64,000 nt of DNA, from positions 250,889,233 through 250,953,232 of the forward strand of contig NC_085137.1 in assembly GCF_035046485.1 (NCBI RefSeq), in the 5' to 3' direction. A program made the position numbers and the translations under genes. The notes below the pieces were generated by a model. That model was given only the letters and a program-made list of their open reading frames with translations. It made no database searches and had not been told where the DNA came from. Position 1 is the first letter of the stretch; each line of letters starts with the position of its first letter. The DNA is from Aedes albopictus. Its lineage: Eukaryota > Arthropoda > Insecta > Diptera > Culicidae. Below, in pieces: positions 10,690 through 59,400 of this stretch.

Positions 10690-10925
10690 CATGAATTCCT
10701 CAAGGAATCCGTAGAGGAATTTCAGGAGGAACCCATAGATAAATTTCTGGAGGAATTCCTGTAGAATTTCCCGGAGGAATGCCTGGAGAAATCCCTAGAG
10801 AGATTTCTGGACAAATTCCTGGCGGAATCTCAGGAGGGATTCCAGGCGGCATCCCTGGAGGAATCCCTAGAGGATTTTTTGGAGGAATACCGGGAATAGT
10901 TCCTGGAGAAAACCCTAGAGTAAAA
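10690..10925. repeat. Short degenerate array related to the central 23-bp satellite
   Basis: Roughly ten imperfect units around GGAATTCCTGGAGGAAT follow one another with a 23-24 bp period, on the strand matching the right arm of the large central satellite. It is open in two frames on opposite strands, giving low-complexity Gly/Ile/Pro peptides, which is a composition effect and not evidence of coding. Confidence 0.6.
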
Positions 10926-20982: not shown

Positions 20983-21279
20983 TTATGCTACGTTCACACT
21001 GCGCTCTATATCAAGTAATATAGCGAGATGATATCCTATATCAAGTAAGGTGTTCACACTACGCCAACTTGATATAGGTTGACGTTTATGTTGGCGAATT
21101 AAAAAAACGAAAAAACAATAACATTGCGCGGAAACGAAACTAAGTTCTGGTTGGCGATTTCGGTGAAATTACGGGGTAAATTAAAGTTCCCAGGAAGTTT
21201 CTGGAGATATTCTGGATTAGAAAAGCAGGAAAACCAGGATGAATGTTGTCGGCTCGGTTGTCGGTAATCTCATCCATGA

Positions 21280-24110
21280 CTTTTTTTATGCGGTTCCTCA
21301 AGGAGTCCGCGATTCTCTCAACGGTTTTTTTTTTTTCAGGAGTACTTTCTGGGAGCTATCGGTTTCCTCTTGGAGTTCTCCCAAAATTCCTTCTGGGATG
21401 TTTTTAAAAAGTGGTTCTAAAATTGTCGCAAGGAGTTCTTCAATAATTCCCAAGAGTTTCTCGGGAATTTCTCTAGAATAACCCTGGAAATTCCACCAGA
21501 ACTTCCGCATACATTCCCCCAGGAGTACTCCGGGAATACCCCCAGGAGCTTTCCGAGAATTTCTCCAGGATTTCCCCGAGAATACTGCAGAATTTTCATG
21601 TAATTCTTCTAGGGATTCCTCGGGAATTCTTCCAATAATTTGCCGGGAAGATTCCCGGCTTCTTCAGATATATTTCTAGGAATTCCACGAGAGTTATATA
21701 AGTTTCCCTAAATGTGTGGTGTATTTTATACTAGAAATTTCATTAAAATTTCTTTGGAAATTTCTCCATAAAATATACGAAAATTCCCTTCCGAAATTTC
21801 CAAGAAATACTCCAGTAATTATGCATGAATCCCTTCAAGATTTCCCTAAGATTTCATCCTCAATTTTCCTGGAACATTCTTCCGCAGTTCCACGGGAATG
21901 TTTACAAGAGTTCCACAAAAAATCATGCAGTCTCCCGGGTAATTCTCCAGATATTCTCCGTGGAATTCCTCAAGGAGATCCCCAGAAGTTTCTCAATCAT
22001 TTCTCCAGCAGTTCTTAGAGAATTACTCCAGGAGTTCATCAGGAATTCCTCAAGAAGTATCTCAGGAAAACTTTATGAAGGTCCTCGTAAATATCAGTTG
22101 CAAATTTTCAGGAATTTCTCTTGGACTTCCTTTGAGTTTTTCCATAAGTTCCCCATGGATTTTTCAAGATATCCTCAGGGATTTTTATCAGGTGTTCACA
22201 GGGGATCTCCAGCAATTCCTCCAAGAGCTTCCACAAATTCCTCCAGGAGTTTCCTGGGGATTCCTCCACGAGTTTCATGGAGATTCCTCCAGAGTTCCCT
22301 GGGGATTCCTGCATGAGTTCCCTGGGGATTCCTCCAGGAGTTCCCTGGGGATTCCTCCAGGAGTTTCATGGAGATTCCTCCAGGGTTCCCTGGGGATTCC
22401 TTCAGGAGTTCTCTGGGGAATCCTCCAGAAATTCCTCCAGGAGTTCTCCGGGGATTTTTCAGGAGTTCCGAAAGGATTCCGCCGGGAGTTCCCCGAAAAT
22501 TCCTTCAGGACTTTCCTGGAAATTCCACCAGAAGCACTCTAATGATTTCTCCAGGAGCGTCCTGCTGAATCCTCCAGCAGATCTGGAGATTTCTGCAGGA
22601 GTTCCCTGGGGATTCCTCCTAGAGTTCCATGAGGATTCTTCCAGGAGTTCCCTAGGGATTCCTTCGGGAGTTCTCTGGGGATTCCTCCAGAAGTTCCCTG
22701 GGGAAACCTCCAGAAGTTCCCTGGGGAATCCTCAAGGAGTTCCCTAGGGATTCCTCCAGAAGTTCCCCGAGGATTCCTCCAGGAGTTCCCTGGGAATTCA
22801 TCCAAGAGTTCACTGAGGTTTCTTCCAGGAGTTCCCTGGGAAATCCTCCAGAAATTTCTTCAGGAGTTCTCCGGGGATTTTTCAGGAGTTCCGTAAGGAT
22901 TCCTCCGGGAGTTCCCCGAGTATTCCTCCGGTAGTTCCCCGAGAATTGCTCCAGGAATTCCCTGGGGATTCCTCCATGAGTTTTCTGGGGATTCCTCCAA
23001 AAGTTCCATGAGAATTCCTCCAAGAGTTCCATGAGGATTCTTGCAGAAGTTCCCTAGAAATTCCTCCAGAAGTTCCCCGAAGATTCCTCCAGGAGTTCCC
23101 TGGGAATTCCTCCGGAAGTTCCCTATGTATTCCTCCAGGATTTCCCAAGAGATTCCTTCAGGAGTTCTCTGGAGATTCCTCCAGGAGTTCTCTGGGGATC
23201 CCTCCAGAAGTTCCCCGAGAATTCCTCCAGAAGTTCCCCGAGAATTCCTCCAGAAGTTCCCTGGAAATTCCTTCAAGAGTTTCCTGAGGATTCTTCCAGG
23301 AGTTCCCTAGGGATTTCTCCGGGAGTTCTCTGGGGATTTCTCCGGGAGTTCTCTGGGGATTCCTCAAGTAGTTCCCCGAGAATTCCTCCAAGAGTTCCCT
23401 GGAAATTCCTCCAGGAGTTCCCTGAGGATTCTTCCAGGAGTTCCCTAGGGATTCCTCCGGTATTTCTCTGGAGATTTCTCTAAGAGTTCCCTGGGGATAT
23501 CTCCAGGGCTTTTCTGGGGATTCCTCCAGGAGCTCCCCAAGGAATTCTTCTAGGAATTCCTCGAGAATTCTTCTAGGAATTCCTCGAGAATTCTTCTAGG
23601 AATTCCTCAGGAATTCTTCTAGGAAATCCTCGGGAATTTTTTTAGGAATTCCTCCGGAATTCTTCTACAAATTTCTCGGGAATTCTTCCATGAGTTCCTA
23701 AGGATTTATTCCAGAAATCCCTCAGGAATTCTTCCAGAAGTTCCTCGGGCATTCTTCCAGAAAATCCTCAGGATTTCTTCCAGCAGTTCCTCGGAAATTA
23801 TTCCAGAAATTCCTCGTGAATTGTTCCAGAAGTTCCTCGGGAATTGTTCTAGAAGTTCCTCAGGAATTCTTCTAGAAGTTCCTCAGGAATTTTTTCCAGA
23901 AATTCCTGATAAATTCTTCTAGGAATTCCTTGGGAATTTTTCTAAGAATTCCTCGGGAATTCTTCTAGGAATTCTTCGAGAATTCTTTTAGGAATTCCTC
24001 GGGAATTCTTCTAGGAATTCCTCAGAAATTCTTCTAGGAATTCCTCGCAAATTTATCTAGGAATTCCTCGGGAATTCTTCTAGGAATTTCTCGGGAATTT
24101 TTCTAGGAGT
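21280..24110. repeat. Degenerate left flank of the 23-bp satellite
   Basis: Diverged units of the type TTCCCTGGGGATTCCTCCAG, then TTCTAGGAATTCCTCGGGAA closer to the centre, still with a ~23-bp period. Similarity between neighbours rises towards 24.1 kb. All frames give low-complexity Ser/Arg/Pro/Gly-rich peptides with frequent stops. Confidence 0.85.
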
Positions 24111-26897
24111 TCTTCCAGAAGTCCCTCGGGAATTCTTCCAGAAGTTCCTCGGGAATTGTTCCAGAAGTTCCTCGGGGATTGTTCCAGAAGTTCCTCGGGA
24201 ATTGTTCCAGAAGTTCCTCGAGAATTCTTGCAGAAGTTCCTCGGGAATTCTTCCAGAAGTTCCTCGGGATTTTTTCCAGAAGTTCCTCGGCAATTCTTCC
24301 AGAAGTTCTTCAGGAATTCTTGCAGAAGTTCCTCGGGAATTCTTGCAGAAGTTCCTCGGGATTTTTTTCAGAAGTTCCTCGGGAATTCTTCCAGAAGTTC
24401 CTCGGGAATTCTTCCAGAAGTTCCTCGGCATTTCTTACAGAAGTTCCTCGGAAATTGTTCCAGAAGTTCCTCGAAAATTGTTCCAGAAGTTCCTCGGGAA
24501 TTGTTCCAGAAGTTCCTCGGGAATTGTTCCAGAAGTCCCTCGAGAATTGTTCCAGAAGTTCCTCGGGAATTCTTCCAGAAGTTCCTCGGGAATTCTTCCA
24601 GAAGTTCCTTGGGAATTCTTCCAGAAGTTCCTCGGGAATTCTTCCAGAAGTTCCTCGGGAATTCTTCCAGAAGTTCCTCGGGAATTCTTCCAGAAGTTCC
24701 TCGGGAATTCTTCCAGAAGTTCCTCGGGAATTCTTCCAGAAGTTCCTCGGGAATTCTTCCAGAAGTTCCTCGGGAATTCTTCCAGAAGTTCCTCGGGAAT
24801 TCTTCCAGAAGTTCCTCGGGAATTCTTCCAGAAGTTCCTCGGGAATTCTTCCAGAAGTTCCTCGGGAATTCTTCCAGAAGTTCCTCGGCATTTCTTCCAG
24901 AAGTTCCTCGGGAATTGTTCCAGAAGTTCCTCGGGAATTGTTCCAGAAGTTCCTCGGGAATTGTTCCAGAAGTTCCTCGGGAATTGTTCCAGAAGTTCCT
25001 CGGGAATTGTTCCAGAAGTTCCTCGGGAATTGTTCCAGAAGTTCCTCGGGAATTGTTCCAGAAGTTCCTCGGGAATTGTTCCAGAAGTTCCTCGGGAATT
25101 GTTCCAGAAGTTCCTCGGGAATTGTTCCAGAAGTTCCTCGGGAATTCTTCCAGAAGTTCCTCGGGAATTCTTCCAGAAGTTCCTCGGGAATTCTTCCAGA
25201 AGTTCCTCGGGAATTCTTCCAGAAGTTCCTCGGGAATTCTTCCAGAAGTTCCTCGGGAATTCTTCCAGAAGTTCCTCGGGAATTCTTCCAGAAGTTCCTC
25301 GGGAATTCTTCCAGAAGTTCCTCGGCATTTCTTCCAGAAGTTTCTCGGGAATTCTTCCAGAAGTTCCTCGGGAATTGTTCCAGAAGGTCCTCGGGAATTG
25401 TTCAAGAAGTTCCTCGGGAATTCTTCCAGAAGTTCCTCGGGAATTCTTCCAGAAGTCCCTCGGGAATTCTTCCAGAAGTTCCTCGGGAATTCTTCCAGAA
25501 GATCCTCGGGAATTCTTCCAGAAGTTCCTCGGGAATTCTTCCAGAAGTTCCTCGGGAATTCTTCCAGAAGATCCTCGGGAATTCTTCCAGAAGTTCCTCG
25601 GGAATTCTTCCAGAAGTTCCTCGGCATTTCTTCCAGAAGTTCCTCGGGAATTGTTCCAGAAGTTCCTCGGGAATTGTTCCAGAAGTTCCTCGGGAATTGT
25701 TCCAGAAGTTCCTCGGGAATTGTTCCAGAAGTTCCTCGGGAATTGTTCCAGAAGTTCCTCGGGAATTCTTCCAGAAGTTCCTCGGCATTTCTTCCAGAAG
25801 TTCCTCGGGAATTGTTCCAGAAGTTCCTCAAGAATTGTTCCAGAAGTTCCTCGGGAATTGTTCCAGAAGTTCCTCGAGAATTCTTGCAGAAGTTCCTCGG
25901 GAATTCTTCCAGAAGTTCCTCGGGATTTTTTCCAGAAGTTCCTCGGCAATTCTTCCAGAAGTTCTTCAGGAATTCTTGCAGAAGTTCCTCGGGAATTCTT
26001 GCAGAAGTTCCTCGGGAATTCTTCCAGAAGTTCCTCGGGAATTCTTCCAGAAGTTCCTCGGGAATTCTTCCAGAAGTTCCTCGGGAATTCTTCCAGAAGT
26101 TCCTCGGGAATTCTTCCAGAAGTTCCTCGGGAATTCTTCCAGAAGTTCCTCGGGAATTCTTCCAGAAGATCCTCGGGAATTCTTCCAGAAGTTCCTCGGG
26201 AATTCTTCCAGAAGTTCCTCGGCATTTCTTCCAGTAGTTCCTCGGGAATTGTTCCAGAAGTTCCTCGGGAATTGTTCCAGAAGTTCCTCGGGAATTGTTC
26301 CAGAAGTTCCTCGGGAATTGTTCCAGAAGTTCCTCGGGAATTCTTCCAGAAGTTCCTCGGGAATTCTTCCAGAAGTTCCTCGGGAATTCTTCCAGAAGTT
26401 CCTCGGGAATTCTTCCAGAAGTTCCTCGGGAATTCTTCCAGAAGTTCCTCGGGAATTCTTCCAGAAGTTCCTCGGGAATTCTTCCAGAAGTTCCTCGGCA
26501 TTTCTTCCAGAAGTTCCTCGGGAATTCTTCCAGAAGTTCCTCGAGAATTGTTCCAGAAGTTCCTCGGGAATTGTTCCAGAAGTTCCTCGGGAATTGTTCC
26601 AGAAGTTCCTCGGGAATTGTTCAAGAAGTTCCTCGGGAATTGTTCCAGAAGTTCCTCGGGAATTCTTCCAGAAGTTCCTCGGGAATTCTTCCAGAAGTTC
26701 CTCGGGAATTCTTCCAGAAGTTCCTCGGGAATTCTTCCAGAAGTTCCTCGGGAATTCTTCCAGAAGTTTCTCGGCATTTCTTCCAGAAGTTCCTCGGGAA
26801 TTGTTCCAGAAGTTCCTCGGGAATTGTTCCAGAAGTTCCTCGGGAATTGTTCCAGAAGTTCCTCGGGAATTGTTCCAGAAGTTCCTCGGGAATTGTT
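24111..26897. repeat. Homogeneous 23-bp satellite, left arm (~120 units)
   Basis: The unit TTCCTCGGGAATTCTTCCAG+AAG is repeated about 120 times (length divided by 23). Two main variants alternate in blocks, GGGAATTCTTCC and GGGAATTGTTCC, with a rarer marker GGCATTTCTTCC. Marker positions (24427, 24887, 25324, 25623, 25784, 26221, 26497, 26773) are all exact multiples of 23 bp apart, so the array has no net indel between them. Confidence 0.95.
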
Positions 26898-26997
26898 CCC
26901 GAGGAATTCCTAAAAAAAATCCCGAGGAATTCTTAGAAGATTTCCCGCGGAAATCCTAGAAGAATTTCCTTGGAATTTCTGAAAGAATTTCTGAAGA
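26898..26997. repeat. Symmetry centre of the inverted satellite
   Basis: The + orientation array ends at ...GGGAATTGTTCC and the complementary orientation begins (CCCGAGGAATTCC...). This ~100-bp hinge is made of diverged units such as CCTAAAAAAAATCCCGAGG and is the fold point of the potential hairpin. Confidence 0.8.
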
Positions 26998-29430
26998 ACT
27001 TCTAGAAGAATCCCCGAGGAACTTCTGGAAGAATTCCCGGGGAACTCCTGGAACAGTTCCCGAGGAACTTCTTAAACAATTCCCGAGGAACTTCTGGAAC
27101 AATTCCCGTGGAACTTCTGGGAGAATTCCCGAGAAACTTCTGGTAAAAATCCCGAGAAACTTCTGGAAGAATTCCCGAAGAACTTCTGCAAGAATTCCCG
27201 AGAAACTTCTGGAAGAATTCCCGAGAAACTTCTGGAAGAATTTCCGAGGAACTTCTGGAAGAATTCCCGAGGAACTTCTGGAAGAATTCCCGAGGAACTT
27301 CTGGAAGAATTCCCGAGGAACTTCTGGAAGAATTCCCGAGGAACTTCTGGAAGAATTCCCGAGGAACTTCTGGAAGAATTCCCGAGGAACTTCTGGAAGA
27401 ATTCCCGAGGAACTTCTGGAAGAATTCCCGAGGAACTTCTGGAAGAATTCCCGAGGAACTTCTGGAAGAATTCCCGAGGAACTTCTGGAAGAATTCCCGA
27501 GGAACTTCTGGAAGAATTCCCGAGGAACTTCTGGAAGAATTCCCGAGGAACTTCTGGAAGAATTCCCGAGGAACTTCTGGAAGAATTCCCGAGGAACTTC
27601 TGGAAGAATTCCCGAGGAACTTCTGGAAGAATTCCCGAGGAACTTCTGGAAGAATTTCCAAGGAACTTCTGGAAGAATTTCCGAGGAACTTCTGGAAGAA
27701 TTCCCGAGGAACTTCTGGAAGAATTCCCGAGGAACTTCTGGAAGAATTCCCGAGGAACTTCTGGAAGAATTCCCGAGGAACTTCTGGAAGAATTCCCGAG
27801 GAACTTCTGGAAGAATTCCCGAGGAACTTCTGGAAGAATTCCCGAGGAACTTCTGGAAGAATTCCCGAGGAACTTCTGGAAGAATTTCCAAGGAACTTCT
27901 GGAAGAATTTCCGAGGAACTTCTGGAAGAATTCCCGAGGAACTTCTGGAAGAATTCCCGAGGAACTTCTGGAAGAATTCCCGAGGAACTTCTGGAAGAAT
28001 TCCCGAGGAACTTCTGGAAGAATTCCCGAGGAACTTCTGGAAGAATTCCCGAGGAACTTCTGGAAGAATTCCCGAGGAACTTCTGGAAGAATTCCCGAGG
28101 AACTTCTGGAAGAATTCCCGAGGAACTTCTGGAAGAATTCCCGAGGAACTTCTGGAAGAATTCCCAAGGAACTTCTGGAAGAATTGCCGAGGAACTTCTG
28201 GAAGAATTCCCGAGGAACTTCTGGAAGAATTCCCGAGGAACTTCTGGAAGAATTCCCGAGGAACTTCTGGAAGAATTCCCGAGGAACTTCTGGAAGAATT
28301 CCCGAGGAACTTCTGGAAGAATTCCCGAGGAACTTCTGGAAGAATTCCCGAGGAACTTCTGGAAGAATTCCCGAGGAACTTCTGGAAGAATTCCCGAGGA
28401 ACTTCTGGAAGAATTCCCGAGGAACTTCTGGAAGAATTCCCGAGGAACTTCTGGAAGAATTCCCGAGGAACTTCTGGAAGAATTCCCGAGGAACTTCTGG
28501 AAGAATTCCCGAGGAACTTCTGGAAGAATTCCCGAGGAACTTCTGGAAGAATTCCCGAGGAACTTCTGGAAGAATTCCCGAGGAACTTCTGGAAGAATTC
28601 CCGAGGAACTTCTGGAAGAATTCCCGAGGAACTTCTGGAAGAATTCCCGAGGAACTTCTGGAAGAATTCCCGAGGAACTTCTGGAAGAATTCCCGAGGAA
28701 CTTCTGGAAGAATTCCCGAGGAACTTCTGGAAGAATTTCCGAGGAACTTCTGGAAGAATTCCCGAGGAACTTCTGGAACAATTCCCGAGGAACTTCTGGA
28801 AGAATTTCCGAGGAACTTCTGGAAGAATTCCCGATGAACTTCTGGAAGAATTCCCGAGGACTTCTGGAAGAATTCCCGAGGAACTTCTGGAAGAATTCCC
28901 GAGGAACTTCTGGAAGAATTCCCGAGGAACTTCTGGAAGAATTCCCGAGGAACTTCTGGAAGAATTCCCGAGGAACTTCTGGAAGAATTCCCGAGGAACT
29001 TCTGGAAGAATTCCCGAGGAACTTCTGGAAGAATTCCCGAGGAACTTCTGGAAGAATTCCCGAGGAACTTCTGGAAGAATTCCCAAGGAACTTCTGGAAG
29101 AATTCCCAAGGAACTTCTGGAAGAATTCCCAAGGAACTTCTGGAAGAATTCCCAAGGAACTTCTGGAAGAATTCCCAAGGAACTTCTGGAAGAATTCCCA
29201 AGGAACTTCTGGAAGAATTCCCAAGGAACTTCTGGAAGAATTCCCGAGGAACTACTGGAAGAATTCTCGAAGAACTTCTGGAAAATTTCCGGGGAACTAC
29301 TGGAAGAATTCTCGAAGAACTTCTGGAAAATTTCCGGGGAACTACTGGAAGAATTCTCGAGGATCTTTTGGAAGAATTTCCGAGGAGCTTCAGGGAGAAA
29401 TTCCGAGGCATTTCTGGAAGAATTTCAAAT
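26998..29430. repeat. Homogeneous 23-bp satellite, right arm (~100 units)
   Basis: Same unit in reverse complement (CTTCTGGAAGAATTCCCGAG+GAA). It is more uniform than the left arm. A variant pair starting AGAATTTCCAAGG recurs at 27651 and 27881, 230 bp (ten units) apart. Seven consecutive CCCAAGG-variant units lie at about 29083-29240. A one-base deletion at about 28860 shifts phase. Confidence 0.95.
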
Positions 29431-31440
29431 TGAATGTATTCCCGAGCAACTTCTGAAGAATGCTTGAAGAACTGCTGGGAGAATTCTCGACGAACTTCTG
29501 GAAGTATTCATGAGACACTTCTGGAAGACCTGCCGAAGAACTTCAGCAAGAATTCCCAAGGAACTTCTAGAGGGTTTTCTGAAGAACTTCTAAAATAATT
29601 TCCGAGGAAATTTTTTGAAAAATTCTCGGAGAGCTCCTGGAGAGTCTTTGGATGAATTTCCGTGAAACTCCTGAAGGAATTCCTGGAGACATTCCCGGGG
29701 AACTTCAAAAATTCCCAAGGAACTCTTTCCGAGGATCCTGAAGTAACTTTCAAGGAACTTCTGAGGAACTCCTGGAGATATTCCCGGGTAATTTTCAGAG
29801 GAACTCCCTTAAGAATTCTTGAAAAACTCCTGTGGGATTCCCCTAGTAACTAGGAGATAGTCTCGATTTCCGAGAAAACCCTGCTGGAATTTTGGAAGTA
29901 TTGGGGGAATTTGCGAAGAAATCCAGGAAGAATTTCCGAAGATGGTTCTTTAGGAACTCCTGGAGGGATTCCCGAAGAACTGCAGGAGGAATTTCCGAAA
30001 AACACCTTGAATTAGAATGAGTTCCCGAGAATCTCCCGGAGATATCCCCGAATCCTGAACCGTTCACCGAGGAAATCTTGGAGGGATTCTTTAGGAACTT
30101 TTGGAAGAATTCCTGAAGAGCTTCTAAAGGAACTTTTGAAGAACTACTGAAGGAATCCCCGAGAAACTCCTGAAGGAATTTTCGAGGAACTCCTGGTGAT
30201 ATTATAGGAGCAACTTTTATAGGAATTTCTGATAAACTAGTGAAGAAATTCCTAGGGAACTCATTGAGTAATTCTCAAGGAACTTTTAGGAAATTCCCGT
30301 GGGTATTCTGAAACAACTCTCCGGGAACTCCTGGATTTAAAATGCTTGATGAATTTGCGGAAAATTTCTGCTAAAGGACTTCTTTGGGAAATCCTGGAGA
30401 TATTTTGAAATTAAGGAATTTTCGTAGCACTGCTGTAGAAGTTCCTGAAGATTTGCTAAAAGAATTTCTGGGGTCTGGAGGGATTCCCGGTTAACTTCTG
30501 GAGGCATTACCGTGGAACTCGCAGAAATATCTCCATAGAACTTCTGGGGGAATTACCGTGGTAAGTCTGGAGGAATTCCGAAAGAAATCCTGCAAGAATT
30601 CACGTAGAATTTCTAGAAAAATACCAGGGGAACTCCTAGAGGAGCTCCAGGAAGAATTCCCGGGGAGCTTCTACAGATATTCCCGGTGGAACTCCTGTAG
30701 AAATTCTTTCGAATTTCCTGTAGCAATTTAGGGAAAACTGCTGGATAAATTCCCGTGAAACTCCTAAAGGAATTCCCAAGAAACATCTGATAGAATATGA
30801 TGATGATGGACAAATTTTAAATTCTTGATGAATTTCCGGGGACTTTGGGGAAGAATACCCGGGTACATTCTGGATGAATTTCCATAGAACTTATAAACGC
30901 ATTCCCAGGGATTCTCGCATAAACTCTGGAGTAATTTGCGGGAAAACGGTCGAATAATTCCTTAAAAACACTAAATCAATTTTCGAGCAAATCTTGGGAT
31001 TATTCCCAGGGAAATCCAGGAGGAATAACAGGTGAAATTGTGCAGCTATTGCCAGGGAAATCCTGGGGTACATCCTGTGAAAATGCTTATGAGTTCCTGA
31101 TTATGCAGTCTGACAAGAAATATTGTCGAACAAAGTTCAGGGATACACACATAAATGCTCGAGGATGTTGCGGGAACCATCTAGAGAAATTCCTATAGAG
31201 CTCTTCCAAGTATTCCTGAGGAAATCCGAGAGAAAACTCTCATGGTACTGTAGGAGGGAATTCCAGGTAAACTTTTGGAGGGATTCCCGATGAACTAATG
31301 CATTCCCGGGGTAAATTCTGCAGCTGCTGTTGCTCTCAACACACAAGGTTTCATCCGTTATTTCCTCCTATTGTGTCTGGAATTGCCTGGAAAGTTTCCC
31401 AAGCAAACTGCCGAAGAAACTCCAGAACAACATTAAATAA
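29431..31440. repeat. Degenerate right flank of the 23-bp satellite
   Basis: Units such as GGAACTTCTGGAGGGATTCC decay progressively to the right, mirroring the left flank in orientation and in the outward loss of similarity. No coding evidence. Confidence 0.8.
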
Positions 31441-31483
31441 AAAAATTTTGTTCTCACTTTTTACTACTCCGCACGAAAATCAT

Positions 31484-31942
31484 CCGAGTTCAAAGTATAT
31501 AAATATGTACCAAGGTAAGAGATTCCCGTAAATGTCAAAAATGAGACTCACCAACACATCTGCGTTAGTTATGAAAAGTTGGTATTTTTACACTAAAATG
31601 TCATTATTTCAGCAAAGTTTGTGAAGTTTTGTTAGTTTGGATGTTTCTAAATGCTGAAAAAATATGTTTAGAATCAATTAAAAAAAATTGTTACCGATTT
31701 TCAAATAGCGATATTTTCTGTTTTATTGCATGGAGGTCACATTTAATCCAGTCAGATACAATTAAATAATAGCTTCTAAGATGGGAGTGCTTAATTTCTT
31801 AAGAAAGTTTGCTAAATAGTGATGTGCCCATACAAATCAGCGCAAACTTCATAACTATTTTTTGCTTTTTTCCTTTTCTCACTAATCCGTGAATATTAGC
31901 GGGAATCTCTTACCTTGGTATTTAGATACTTTGATCCGAGTT
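31484..31942. mobile_element. Small inverted-repeat element within the right arm
   Basis: ACCAAGGTAAGAGATTCCCG at ~31509-31528 is the complement of CGGGAATCTCTTACCTTGGT at ~31900-31919, and pairing extends outwards through CAAAGTAT and the GAGTTC/CGAGTTC ends. The loop is AT-rich. It was probably a later insertion into the giant element, or part of its original end. Confidence 0.55.
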
Positions 31943-32242
31943 CACCATTTTTTTTTCCTTTTTCTGATGTATGGTTTTTGTTTTGGTTGCGTGCGTCTTG
32001 ACGGTCTTGACGTTTCGCAACATAAAATATCGCCCAGCGCTATGTTGGCCGGGTTGCCAACCACAACTTTTCGGGTTTATATTACGAAACGAACTTGATA
32101 TACGCTATATCACGTTCCATTCTTAATATAGGATGACAACTGATTTGTATGGTATATCAAGTAATATTGAACTTGATATAGCCTCTATATCAAGAATCGC
32201 TCTATATTACTTGATATAGGGCGTAGTGTGAACGTAGCATTA

Positions 32243-47262: not shown

Positions 47263-47285
47263 NNNNNNNNNNNNNNNNNNNNNNN
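47263..47285. other. Assembly gap (23 N)
   Basis: Run of N immediately after the right terminus of the MITE. The RTE coding similarity resumes right after it, so the hidden part is probably small or contains the duplicated TA plus a few bases. Confidence 0.98.
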
Positions 47286-50040: not shown

Positions 50041-50337
50041 TGTTAAGAATAGGTTTAATTTTGAATCACCCTAATTGTAAATTCGCTCTCACTTCTCTTC
50101 ACACAACGATAAACCTCTCTGATCATCTATCCATCCGATAGGTGAGCGAAAGCAAATAGTTCTACTCACTTCGTATCCCCAAACGTGCTCTGTGCGTATC
50201 ATATAGCCAGTATAGAATAGCCAGGCCTGCCAGTTCAAACCCGATCGCCGAACCGCTTAGATCATTGGTATCTTCTCGCAAATAAACGTACCCCTTTCAA
50301 ATTCCGATACCGAGCCAATCGAGTTTCATTTCGTACA
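50041..50337 (+). repeat. 5' LTR of BEL copy 2
   Basis: Begins TGTTAAGAATAGG and ends TTTCGTACA; 297 bp, matching 58587-58883 with no difference by eye. Contains CAAATAAACG as possible polyadenylation region. Confidence 0.95.
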
Positions 50338-50345
50338 TAAAAAAT

Positions 50346-50364
50346 TGGTCCTTCGAGCCGGATT
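50346..50364 (+). promoter_or_regulatory. Primer-binding site, tRNA-Tyr type
   Basis: TGGTCCTTCGAGCCGGATT starts 8 bases after the LTR. It is complementary to a tRNA 3' end reading AATCCGGCTCGAAGGACCA, which is the usual 3' end of eukaryotic tRNA-Tyr. Confidence 0.75.
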
Positions 50365-58586: not shown

Positions 58587-58883
58587 TGTTAAGAATAGGT
58601 TTAATTTTGAATCACCCTAATTGTAAATTCGCTCTCACTTCTCTTCACACAACGATAAACCTCTCTGATCATCTATCCATCCGATAGGTGAGCGAAAGCA
58701 AATAGTTCTACTCACTTCGTATCCCCAAACGTGCTCTGTGCGTATCATATAGCCAGTATAGAATAGCCAGGCCTGCCAGTTCAAACCCGATCGCCGAACC
58801 GCTTAGATCATTGGTATCTTCTCGCAAATAAACGTACCCCTTTCAAATTCCGATACCGAGCCAATCGAGTTTCATTTCGTACA
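58587..58883 (+). repeat. 3' LTR of BEL copy 2
   Basis: Same 297 bp as the 5' LTR with no visible difference, followed by target duplication TGGAG at 58884-58888. Confidence 0.95.
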
Positions 58884-58888
58884 TGGAG

Positions 58889-59400
58889 AATTGGATCGTG
58901 TCTCCATTTCCGCCCACACTCAGTAGGAATTCAGTGGAGATTGCCACCCACCATATTCTGGCACCCATTTTTGCCATTCATACGCGATGCGCTTCACGGT
59001 CACTTTAGGCGTAGCGCTCCGAATTGACCGTTGGGAATTTACGCTATCTGTACAAATATTTCTCTACTTTCCCGCACTCAAATATGGGTTTCTTCAACAC
59101 CAATGTTACCCACCGGTAACAACCTAAATGGCGTGGAGGGCGTATGCATGGGAAACCACGACAACGGAACGACTACACCATTGCAGCAGCAGAGGATGGA
59201 AATGAGCCAACTCCCGTACTGAGGGATGTTAATGATGCCTGGTCGATACTTGACCATTGGTGGAAACTGGCGGAACCTTCGGCTGAAGGTGGCCTCGATG
59301 AGTGGCCTTGATGGATGGCCGATGAAATCGTCTCAATCGGCTGATTGAGACGGACACACTGCTACGTTTGCAGTTTGGCGGAATAATCTCGAACCTTTCG
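58889..59400. other. No gene recognised; right flank of BEL copy 2
   Basis: No domain in any frame. GATGGCCGATGAAATCGTCT followed by an ~8-bp inverted pair (CAATCGGCTGATTGAG) near 59335. Continuous with 49740-50035 if the BEL element is taken out. Confidence 0.35.

Follow-up and report, generated by a model that had tools for sequence, protein, structure and literature searches.

A satellite-armed, foldback-like transposon family of probable PIF/Harbinger affinity in Aedes albopictus

Transposons whose inverted arms are built of tandem repeats are established: Galileo in Drosophila, Tetris in Drosophila virilis and Tm1 in Meloidogyne. Here we describe copy E1 of a transposon family in a 64-kb stretch of the Aedes albopictus genome (C2:250889233-250953232; the window), in which two opposed arms of a 23-bp satellite lie between inverted ends. 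An earlier note made from the letters of the window had claimed an 11.25-kb mirror-image satellite with transposon ends, and this was borne out by an element of 11,254 bp at 20986-32239; the three precedents answer its remark that it knew of no described family of such build. According to the available excerpts of the cited papers, on which the literature statements here rest, Tetris resembles E1 as a non-autonomous foldback element with a flanking domain, inverted arms of tandem repeats and a variable middle, and its repeats expand to satellite-like arrays of up to 66 copies, with repeat gain within an arm attributed to unequal crossing-over (PMC4079207). It differs in its ~220-bp repeats, 8-10-bp target duplication and assignment to Mutator (PMC4079207), and its long arrays are thought to disrupt the element, whereas E1 holds about 210 near-identical units between intact ends. 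Tm1 also has inverted arms of 13-15 bp tandem repeats, whose variable number is unequal between the two ends of one element, and a transposase-bearing group, but makes a 9-bp duplication and has a Mutator/Phantom-like transposase (PMC3169594). Galileo shares long, internally repetitive arms, independent arm expansion, chimeric copies and, as a further likeness, extra transposase sites in its tandem repeats, but belongs to the P superfamily and has ~210-bp repeats, two or three per arm where present (PMC3573991, PMC3688188). The miDNA4 and Xstir miniature inverted-repeat transposable elements (MITEs) of Xenopus contain an internal tandem array able to become a satellite, but no 10-kb build with two inverted arms is described for them in the available text (PMC12628747); models of how a satellite grows within a transposon exist for MITEs (PMC12628747) and for Tetris (PMC4079207).

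The PIF/Harbinger superfamily duplicates 5'-TWA-3' at its target, and its autonomous elements mostly hold two kinds of open reading frame (ORF), a DDE transposase and a Myb/SANT protein (PMC4482050); the present family resembles it in the TWA duplication and in the DDE transposase and Myb/SANT genes of gene-bearing kin. A literature search, over text available in part, found no PIF/Harbinger foldback or satellite-armed element, and Repbase or TEfam may list the family under another name; no literature occurrence was found of the part of the end sequence that was searched. The combination of superfamily (3-bp TWA) with scale (that number of near-identical units) looks new.

E1 is very probably a copy of a non-autonomous, foldback-like transposon family whose TWA duplication matches PIF/Harbinger, as do its nearest relatives that bear genes. 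First, its termini are related inverted sequences. TGCTACGTTCACAC occurs exactly at only two places in the window, 20986-20999 (+) and 32226-32239 (-), and with up to three mismatches gives 7 matches versus 3.2 expected. Aligned to each other, 61 bp of the left end and 69 bp of the right form an imperfect inverted repeat with 81% identity across 70 columns (two gaps of 4 bp each; E 5e-11); the earlier note was right about its presence and short on its length, the ~38 bp given there being the ungapped first part. All seven occurrences of TATATCAAGT in the window fall at the ends of E1, three at the left and four at the right, versus 0.06 expected by shuffling, and these subterminal motifs are candidate transposase sites, a role suggested by sequence. 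Non-satellite DNA adjoining the ends amounts to ~200 bp at the left and ~360 bp at the right, a nested element excluded.

Second, E1 was inserted precisely at TTA. Genome searches, here and below, cover one 1.344-Gb assembly. When the E1 flanks were joined with one TTA, 12 paralogous loci matched across both flanks at 90-92% (the 20 matches listed also included the window's own two flanks and 6 partial matches). In all three empty loci read base by base, GGTTTAGTG spans the junction, TTA occurs there once and the alignment is ungapped nearby, the indels relative to E1 sitting elsewhere. The single TTA in these loci means that a dispersed repeat received the 11,254-bp element at TTA, with a 3-bp duplication, which confirms the TTA reported on both sides of the element; the empty site that the earlier note had suggested seeking in other strains was found here, within one assembly, as paralogous copies of the target repeat. 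A second copy, E5, gave the same result, as its flanks joined with one TTA matched uninterrupted neighbouring array units over 200/200 columns at up to 97.5%, the host site being a tandem array of roughly 87-bp units (unit length by inspection). These empty sites bear directly on the proposal that the family inserts at the dinucleotide AT, as do ATon of Aedes aegypti or ISL2EU, with TTA accidental. The ATon flanks, A...T with inner T...A (PMC3422177), would fit A/TGCT...AGCA/T, and ISL2EU duplicates AT (PMC4482050), but AT models predict the empty site GGTTTATTAGTG, whereas the three sites read show GGTTTAGTG, with a single TTA and not TTATTA, and 8 of the 12 intact copies described below pair TTA with TTA or TAA with TAA. 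AT insertion is therefore false for E1, and we give the proposal very little credence.

Third, the same ends recur as inverted pairs through the genome. The exact 14-mer end was found at 42 places, compared to 32 for the reversed control, so the count means little by itself and the weight lies with inverted pairs, of which five exact ones exist besides E1 (E2-E6, ends 9.6-18.1 kb apart). Searches with a left end of 205 bp (41 matches, with 40 of 164 candidates scored) and a right end of 295 bp (64 matches, with 40 of 80 scored) added 13 pairs called by position (E7-E19), bringing the family to at least 19 end pairs including E1, with spacings of 5-18 kb; E15 and E17 have one incomplete end each, and the right terminus is damaged in E8, E11 and E13. 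Such spacings do not suit the label 'MITE-like' of the earlier note, as a MITE is under about 500 bp. Left ends of E1 and of E2-E6 diverge by 1.6-3.7%, so E1 is not brand new. L013/L085 was set aside as an old, broken relative. Three patterns run against a collection of viral contigs gave 0, 0 and 8 matches, on which no conclusion here is based.

The flanks of these pairs point to the same target. Among 30 left-end loci fetched, the terminus was located in 28, where it is preceded by TTA in 14, TAA in 10 and another trinucleotide in 4 (L035 and L036 have a common flank, so not all left flanks are independent). Both ends were fetched for E1-E16, and both termini are intact in 12 of the 16 copies. 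Matching trinucleotide duplications flank 9 of these 12, five being TTA (E1, E4, E5, E9, E16), three TAA (E6, E12, E14) and one AAA (E7); E4 and E5 are near-identical, and their duplications are not independent. TWA is thus seen at 24/28 left flanks, as a duplication in 8/12 intact copies and at the empty sites of E1 and E5, and the search for other end copies that the earlier note had suggested yields inverted pairs, most with TTA or TAA duplications. A foldback element of Mutator or P type, as Tetris, Tm1 and Galileo are, would have the same build of unique ends, opposite tandem-repeat arms and variable middle (PMC4079207, PMC3573991, PMC3688188, PMC3169594), but the 8-10-bp duplications of Tetris and 9-bp duplications of Tm1 in the available accounts contrast with 3 bp here, in 9/12 copies and at the empty sites, which makes this assignment very unlikely.

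Fourth, satellite arms point inward from the ends of the family. Satellite lies within ~1.25 kb inside the end at 28/28 located left ends (scores 80-533) and at 8/8 right ends fetched (scores 56-224), and its polarity at all these ends is inward, in the same sense. The outer flanks of 29/30 left-end loci score at most 41; the thirtieth, L054, has an outer score of 385 and a truncated end whose orientation was wrongly assigned by script. Among eight loci found with the bare 14-mer, five score 134-533 for satellite in the next 1.3 kb. All seven copies read whole (E1-E6 and E12; the middle of E7 was also read) have the order end, decayed units, + arm, middle, - arm, decayed units, end, and in each a unique flanking domain is joined to inverted arms of tandem repeats in variable number. 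Nested inserts lie inside E2 and E5, and the 5-kb insert of E2 contains gag-pol-like ORFs (label by inspection) and no transposase.

Within E1, 23-bp units run on the + strand from ~21364 to 26899 and on the - strand from 26896 to ~30915, with more decayed units reaching ~21190 at the left and ~31430 at the right (limits by inspection). In bins of 230 bp, identity to the unit reaches 0.93-1.0 across ~24150-29200, except that the first right-arm bins beside the axis fall to 0.86, and is 0.61-0.86 outside this region in both arms. The exact master unit makes up 54/121 left-arm and 62/100 right-arm units. Variant C7G was counted in 30/100 matched units at the left and 2/77 at the right, with a narrow pattern, so that these totals differ from the exact-unit counts (121, 100); variant G2C,A4T occurs in 5 units at the left and 0 at the right. 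Because the unit comparison took the first 15 units of the right arm in the wrong register, its list of shared types is too short. Because C7G and other variants differ between the arms, the mirror is not an assembly reflection or hairpin artefact. A simple inverted duplication of one array was excluded, as arm variants differ and no register is clearly best. A single inversion within an ordinary array, which the zone order (B-T-A to the left of the axis, T-A-outer to the right) might suggest, was set aside, as sister copies have an axis core: a middle core of mixed units is present in E2-E6 and not recognisable in E1, which makes loss of that core the better reading of the E1 axis.

These observations also speak to whether E1 is an ordinary tandem satellite with an inverted middle, its transposon-like ends having arisen by chance or assembly error. 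Edge decay and local homogenisation are typical of satellites and are seen in E1, and satellites are often misassembled. Exact insertion relative to paralogous empty sites nevertheless refutes this explanation unless the empty sites are artefacts too; 18 further end pairs, including six whose full sequence shows the same polarity, stand against it, as do the differing variants of the E1 arms, which leave no room for a reflected read. We assign it almost no probability.

Finally, decayed outer-arm DNA has been inherited collinearly in several copies. The left outer arm of E1 is 96, 93, 93.5, 93.5 and 91% identical to E2, E3, E4, E5 and E6, respectively, at the matching place, and for E2, E3, E4 and E6 a shift to the adjacent register lowers identity to about 65% (the second left-arm match of E5 is a 112-bp piece at 92%), and its right outer arm is 92.9% identical to E2 and about 97% identical, in two pieces, to E3. 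Outer units that are collinear at 91-97%, versus ~65% off-register, indicate that these arrays were carried along by transposition and that long arms predate the spread of the copies concerned. Individual copies then changed in arm length and unit variants: the main right-arm run varies from 1.6 to 5.0 kb in E1-E6, and the C7G share of matched left-arm units is 30/100 in E1, 4/73 in E2 and 8/36 in E3. The same variation in right-run length (1.6-5.0 kb) and C7G share would be expected if, as in the second history of the earlier note, each inserted copy had started from a short seed and enlarged its satellite independently, but the 91-97% collinearity of outer units places long arms first, and all 19 pairs found span at least 5 kb, with no short progenitor among them; separate growth is therefore unlikely. 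Neither of the two histories offered in the earlier note, capture and expansion of an internal repeat by a MITE-like element or amplification in each arm of a short palindromic one, is shown as stated, since long arms came before the spread of related copies and changed afterwards.

Transposase genes were sought in the family and its surroundings. A genome-wide DDE_Tnp_4 profile search gave 150 matches (150 of 227 candidates scored), one of which is found 4 kb inward of the R-type end at C1:29466535, an end that is 82% identical to that of E1 and preceded by TAA. This R-type end matches E1, E4, E5, E6 and E12 over about 300 bp at 82-86%, E2 at 84% in two pieces and E3 at 70% over 817 columns. 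Between the end and the genes at this locus is decayed 23-bp satellite (lag-23 self-match 0.42 versus 0.27 in two controls), and the genes themselves are a Myb_DNA-bind_4 ORF (47.3 bits) and, on the opposite strand, a DDE_Tnp_4 ORF (82.4 bits) that spans profile positions 40-158. The arm, Myb and transposase DNA recurs at 97-99% identity in a second locus, C1:125233785-125238631, where two stops interrupt the transposase match; on the same side of this transposase, at a distance of 16.8 kb, is an R-type end of the family, with ~13 kb unread between end and arm. Another DDE_Tnp_4 match lies 8.5 kb inside a left end (C1295:36206). The two loci with both genes support the PIF/Harbinger superfamily without proving a single element with both ends and genes, or its moving E1. 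Two further matches, C1:103145003 and C3:264756899, each ~550 bp beyond a family end, were dropped because they represent another Harbinger-type transposase (39% of amino acids identical); the neighbouring loci C1:103146045 and C3:264757953 (L012, L049, L088, L089) are 97-99% identical over the transposase gene and the start of the satellite element and are, to judge by this identity, one shared insertion inside duplicated DNA.

Several results weigh against our interpretation. Three of the 12 intact copies have no matching 3-bp duplication, their flanks being TAA/TTA in E2 (TTAA on both sides), TTA/TAG in E3 and GGA/TTA in E10, and three of the eight bare 14-mer loci have little or no satellite (L009, 14; L013, 36; L011, 54; at most 23 in shuffles). 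One clear mirror register was not found when the outer arms of E1 were aligned to each other, so that beyond the ends there is inverted orientation of one satellite family and no strict inverted repeat; mirroring in E1 is confined to the ends (61-69 bp) and unit orientation, and no inverted repeat was obtained over the full length. E4, E5, E6 and E12 are homologous to E1 at the ends, but the first three have a right outer arm (91-100% identical among them) that shows no homology to that of E1, and in E12 the lack of homology extends to both outer arms. Homologous ends with non-homologous arms mean that arms were exchanged or rebuilt, which simple cut-and-paste leaves unexplained. On the side of the transposase, none of the 150 DDE_Tnp_4 matches (150 of 227 scored) lies inside the 19 pairs, and comparison of the kin transposase and Myb to the other fetched copies gave no match. 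Of the two kinds of end, the gene-bearing kin share just the R-type with the family: a search of 10.8 kb beyond the genes at C1:29466535 turned up no L-type end, and the array beyond those genes has a 24/12-bp period instead of 23 bp.

In our working model, a PIF/Harbinger transposase and a Myb/SANT partner would recognise the ends and subterminal TATATCAAGT sites, and the transposase would excise the whole 10-kb unit and insert it at TWA. The 23-bp units would grow and homogenise by unequal exchange or slippage within each arm, fastest near the middle, so that decayed units would end up outside. Opposite orientation of the arms would allow pairing, which could explain the core loss of E1 and an apparent core inversion in both E4 and E5. 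The evidence for the inverted core is no more than suggestive, as the reverse match of 73.5% is modestly higher than the ~70% given by any satellite stretch, and the core is partly self-inverted. E4 (C3:212110727-212120374) and E5 (C3:212260486-212272869; loci L021-L024 for the two) lie ~140 kb apart in opposite orientation and are 98.9-100% identical over long stretches, with right flanks identical at 300/300 positions and left flanks unrelated; they are either an inverted duplication ending exactly at the transposon end or an assembly duplication.

The satellite unit itself is conserved across the copies read whole. Left ends sorted by outer arm fall into two types, with 17 and 9 of the 30 loci and 4 unassigned (grouping by inspection), and E12 belongs to the second type, its left end differing from that of E1 at 24/189 aligned bases. 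Despite these left-end differences, the exact master 23-mer is the commonest matched unit in both arms of E1-E6 and E12, which suggests a possible, if doubtful, role for the satellite as working machinery: the 23-bp unit would be bound by the transposase, its Myb/SANT partner or a host protein, the mirrored arms would be very long recognition or pairing arrays, and the unit would be kept fixed across subfamilies. Exchange of sequence between copies would explain the fixed master unit without function. A 69-mer of three master units occurs at 1,649 exact places in the genome (control, 0). Dense exact master units also lie at C1:37656812-37658801, 16 kb from a family left end on its outer side, and are either a stand-alone array or an element with missed ends.

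The features of E1 are collected below. The nested element is unrelated, carries its own 9-bp duplication ATCCGAGTT at 31482-31490 and 31934-31942, and is absent, as a gap in alignment, from sister copies E2 and E3.

Features of E1 in the window (positions count from the first base of the 64-kb stretch)
Feature	Positions	Strand	Basis
Left target-site duplication TTA	20983..20985	.	flank read and empty sites
Whole element (copy E1), 11,254 bp	20986..32239	.	ends, TTA/TTA, paralogous loci without block
Left terminal inverted repeat (L-type end)	20986..21046	+	end-to-end alignment
Three subterminal TATATCAAGT sites, starts spaced 30 bp	21007..21076	.	motif scan of window
Left outer arm, 23-bp units strongly decayed	21190..22236	+	unit identity; limits by inspection
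Left arm, B variant GGGATTCCTCCAGGAGTTCCCTG	22237..23540	+	repeat zones
Left arm, transition variant GGAATTCTTCTAGGAATTCCTCG	23541..24105	+	repeat zones
Left arm, homogeneous A variant GGAATTCTTCCAGAAGTTCCTCG, about 121 units	24106..26895	+	repeat zones
Axis and first ~11 diverged right-arm units	26896..27140	-	repeat zones, comparison with E2-E6 core
Right arm, homogeneous A variant, about 91 units	27141..29240	-	unit identity
Right outer arm, decayed units	29241..31430	-	unit identity; limits by inspection
Unrelated nested element, 443 bp, inverted ends	31491..31933	.	limits by inspection
Four subterminal TATATCAAGT sites	32093..32218	.	motif scan of window
Right terminal inverted repeat (R-type end)	32171..32239	-	end-to-end alignment
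Right target-site duplication TTA	32240..32242	.	flank read and empty sites

Elsewhere in the window, a decayed 12-bp array at 10693-10908 (GAATTCCTGGAG, 18 copies, 62% matches) lies outside E1 and resembles a half-unit of the satellite. A Pao-type retroelement has 99% identical repeats of 308 bp at 50041-50348 and 58587-58894, and inside it 1.2 kb at 54912-56132 matches its own reverse complement at 91%; this self-palindromic insert separates the two halves of the Peptidase_A17 domain in a retroelement that is otherwise young. The sole gap in the window is a run of 23 N at 47263-47285.

The family extends the foldback architecture to an apparent PIF/Harbinger lineage, which agrees with an opinion cited by the Tetris authors, that different transposon lineages acquire the foldback build independently; those authors left undecided whether such elements have a special tendency to give rise to satellites (PMC4079207). 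If the satellite were working machinery, this would be a class of transposon that moves and maintains satellite DNA by its own mechanism. As it stands, the family presents many insertions of one satellite in one genome, so that growth and homogenisation can be compared between copies, with the outer arms giving the shared history and the inner arms the growth specific to each copy.

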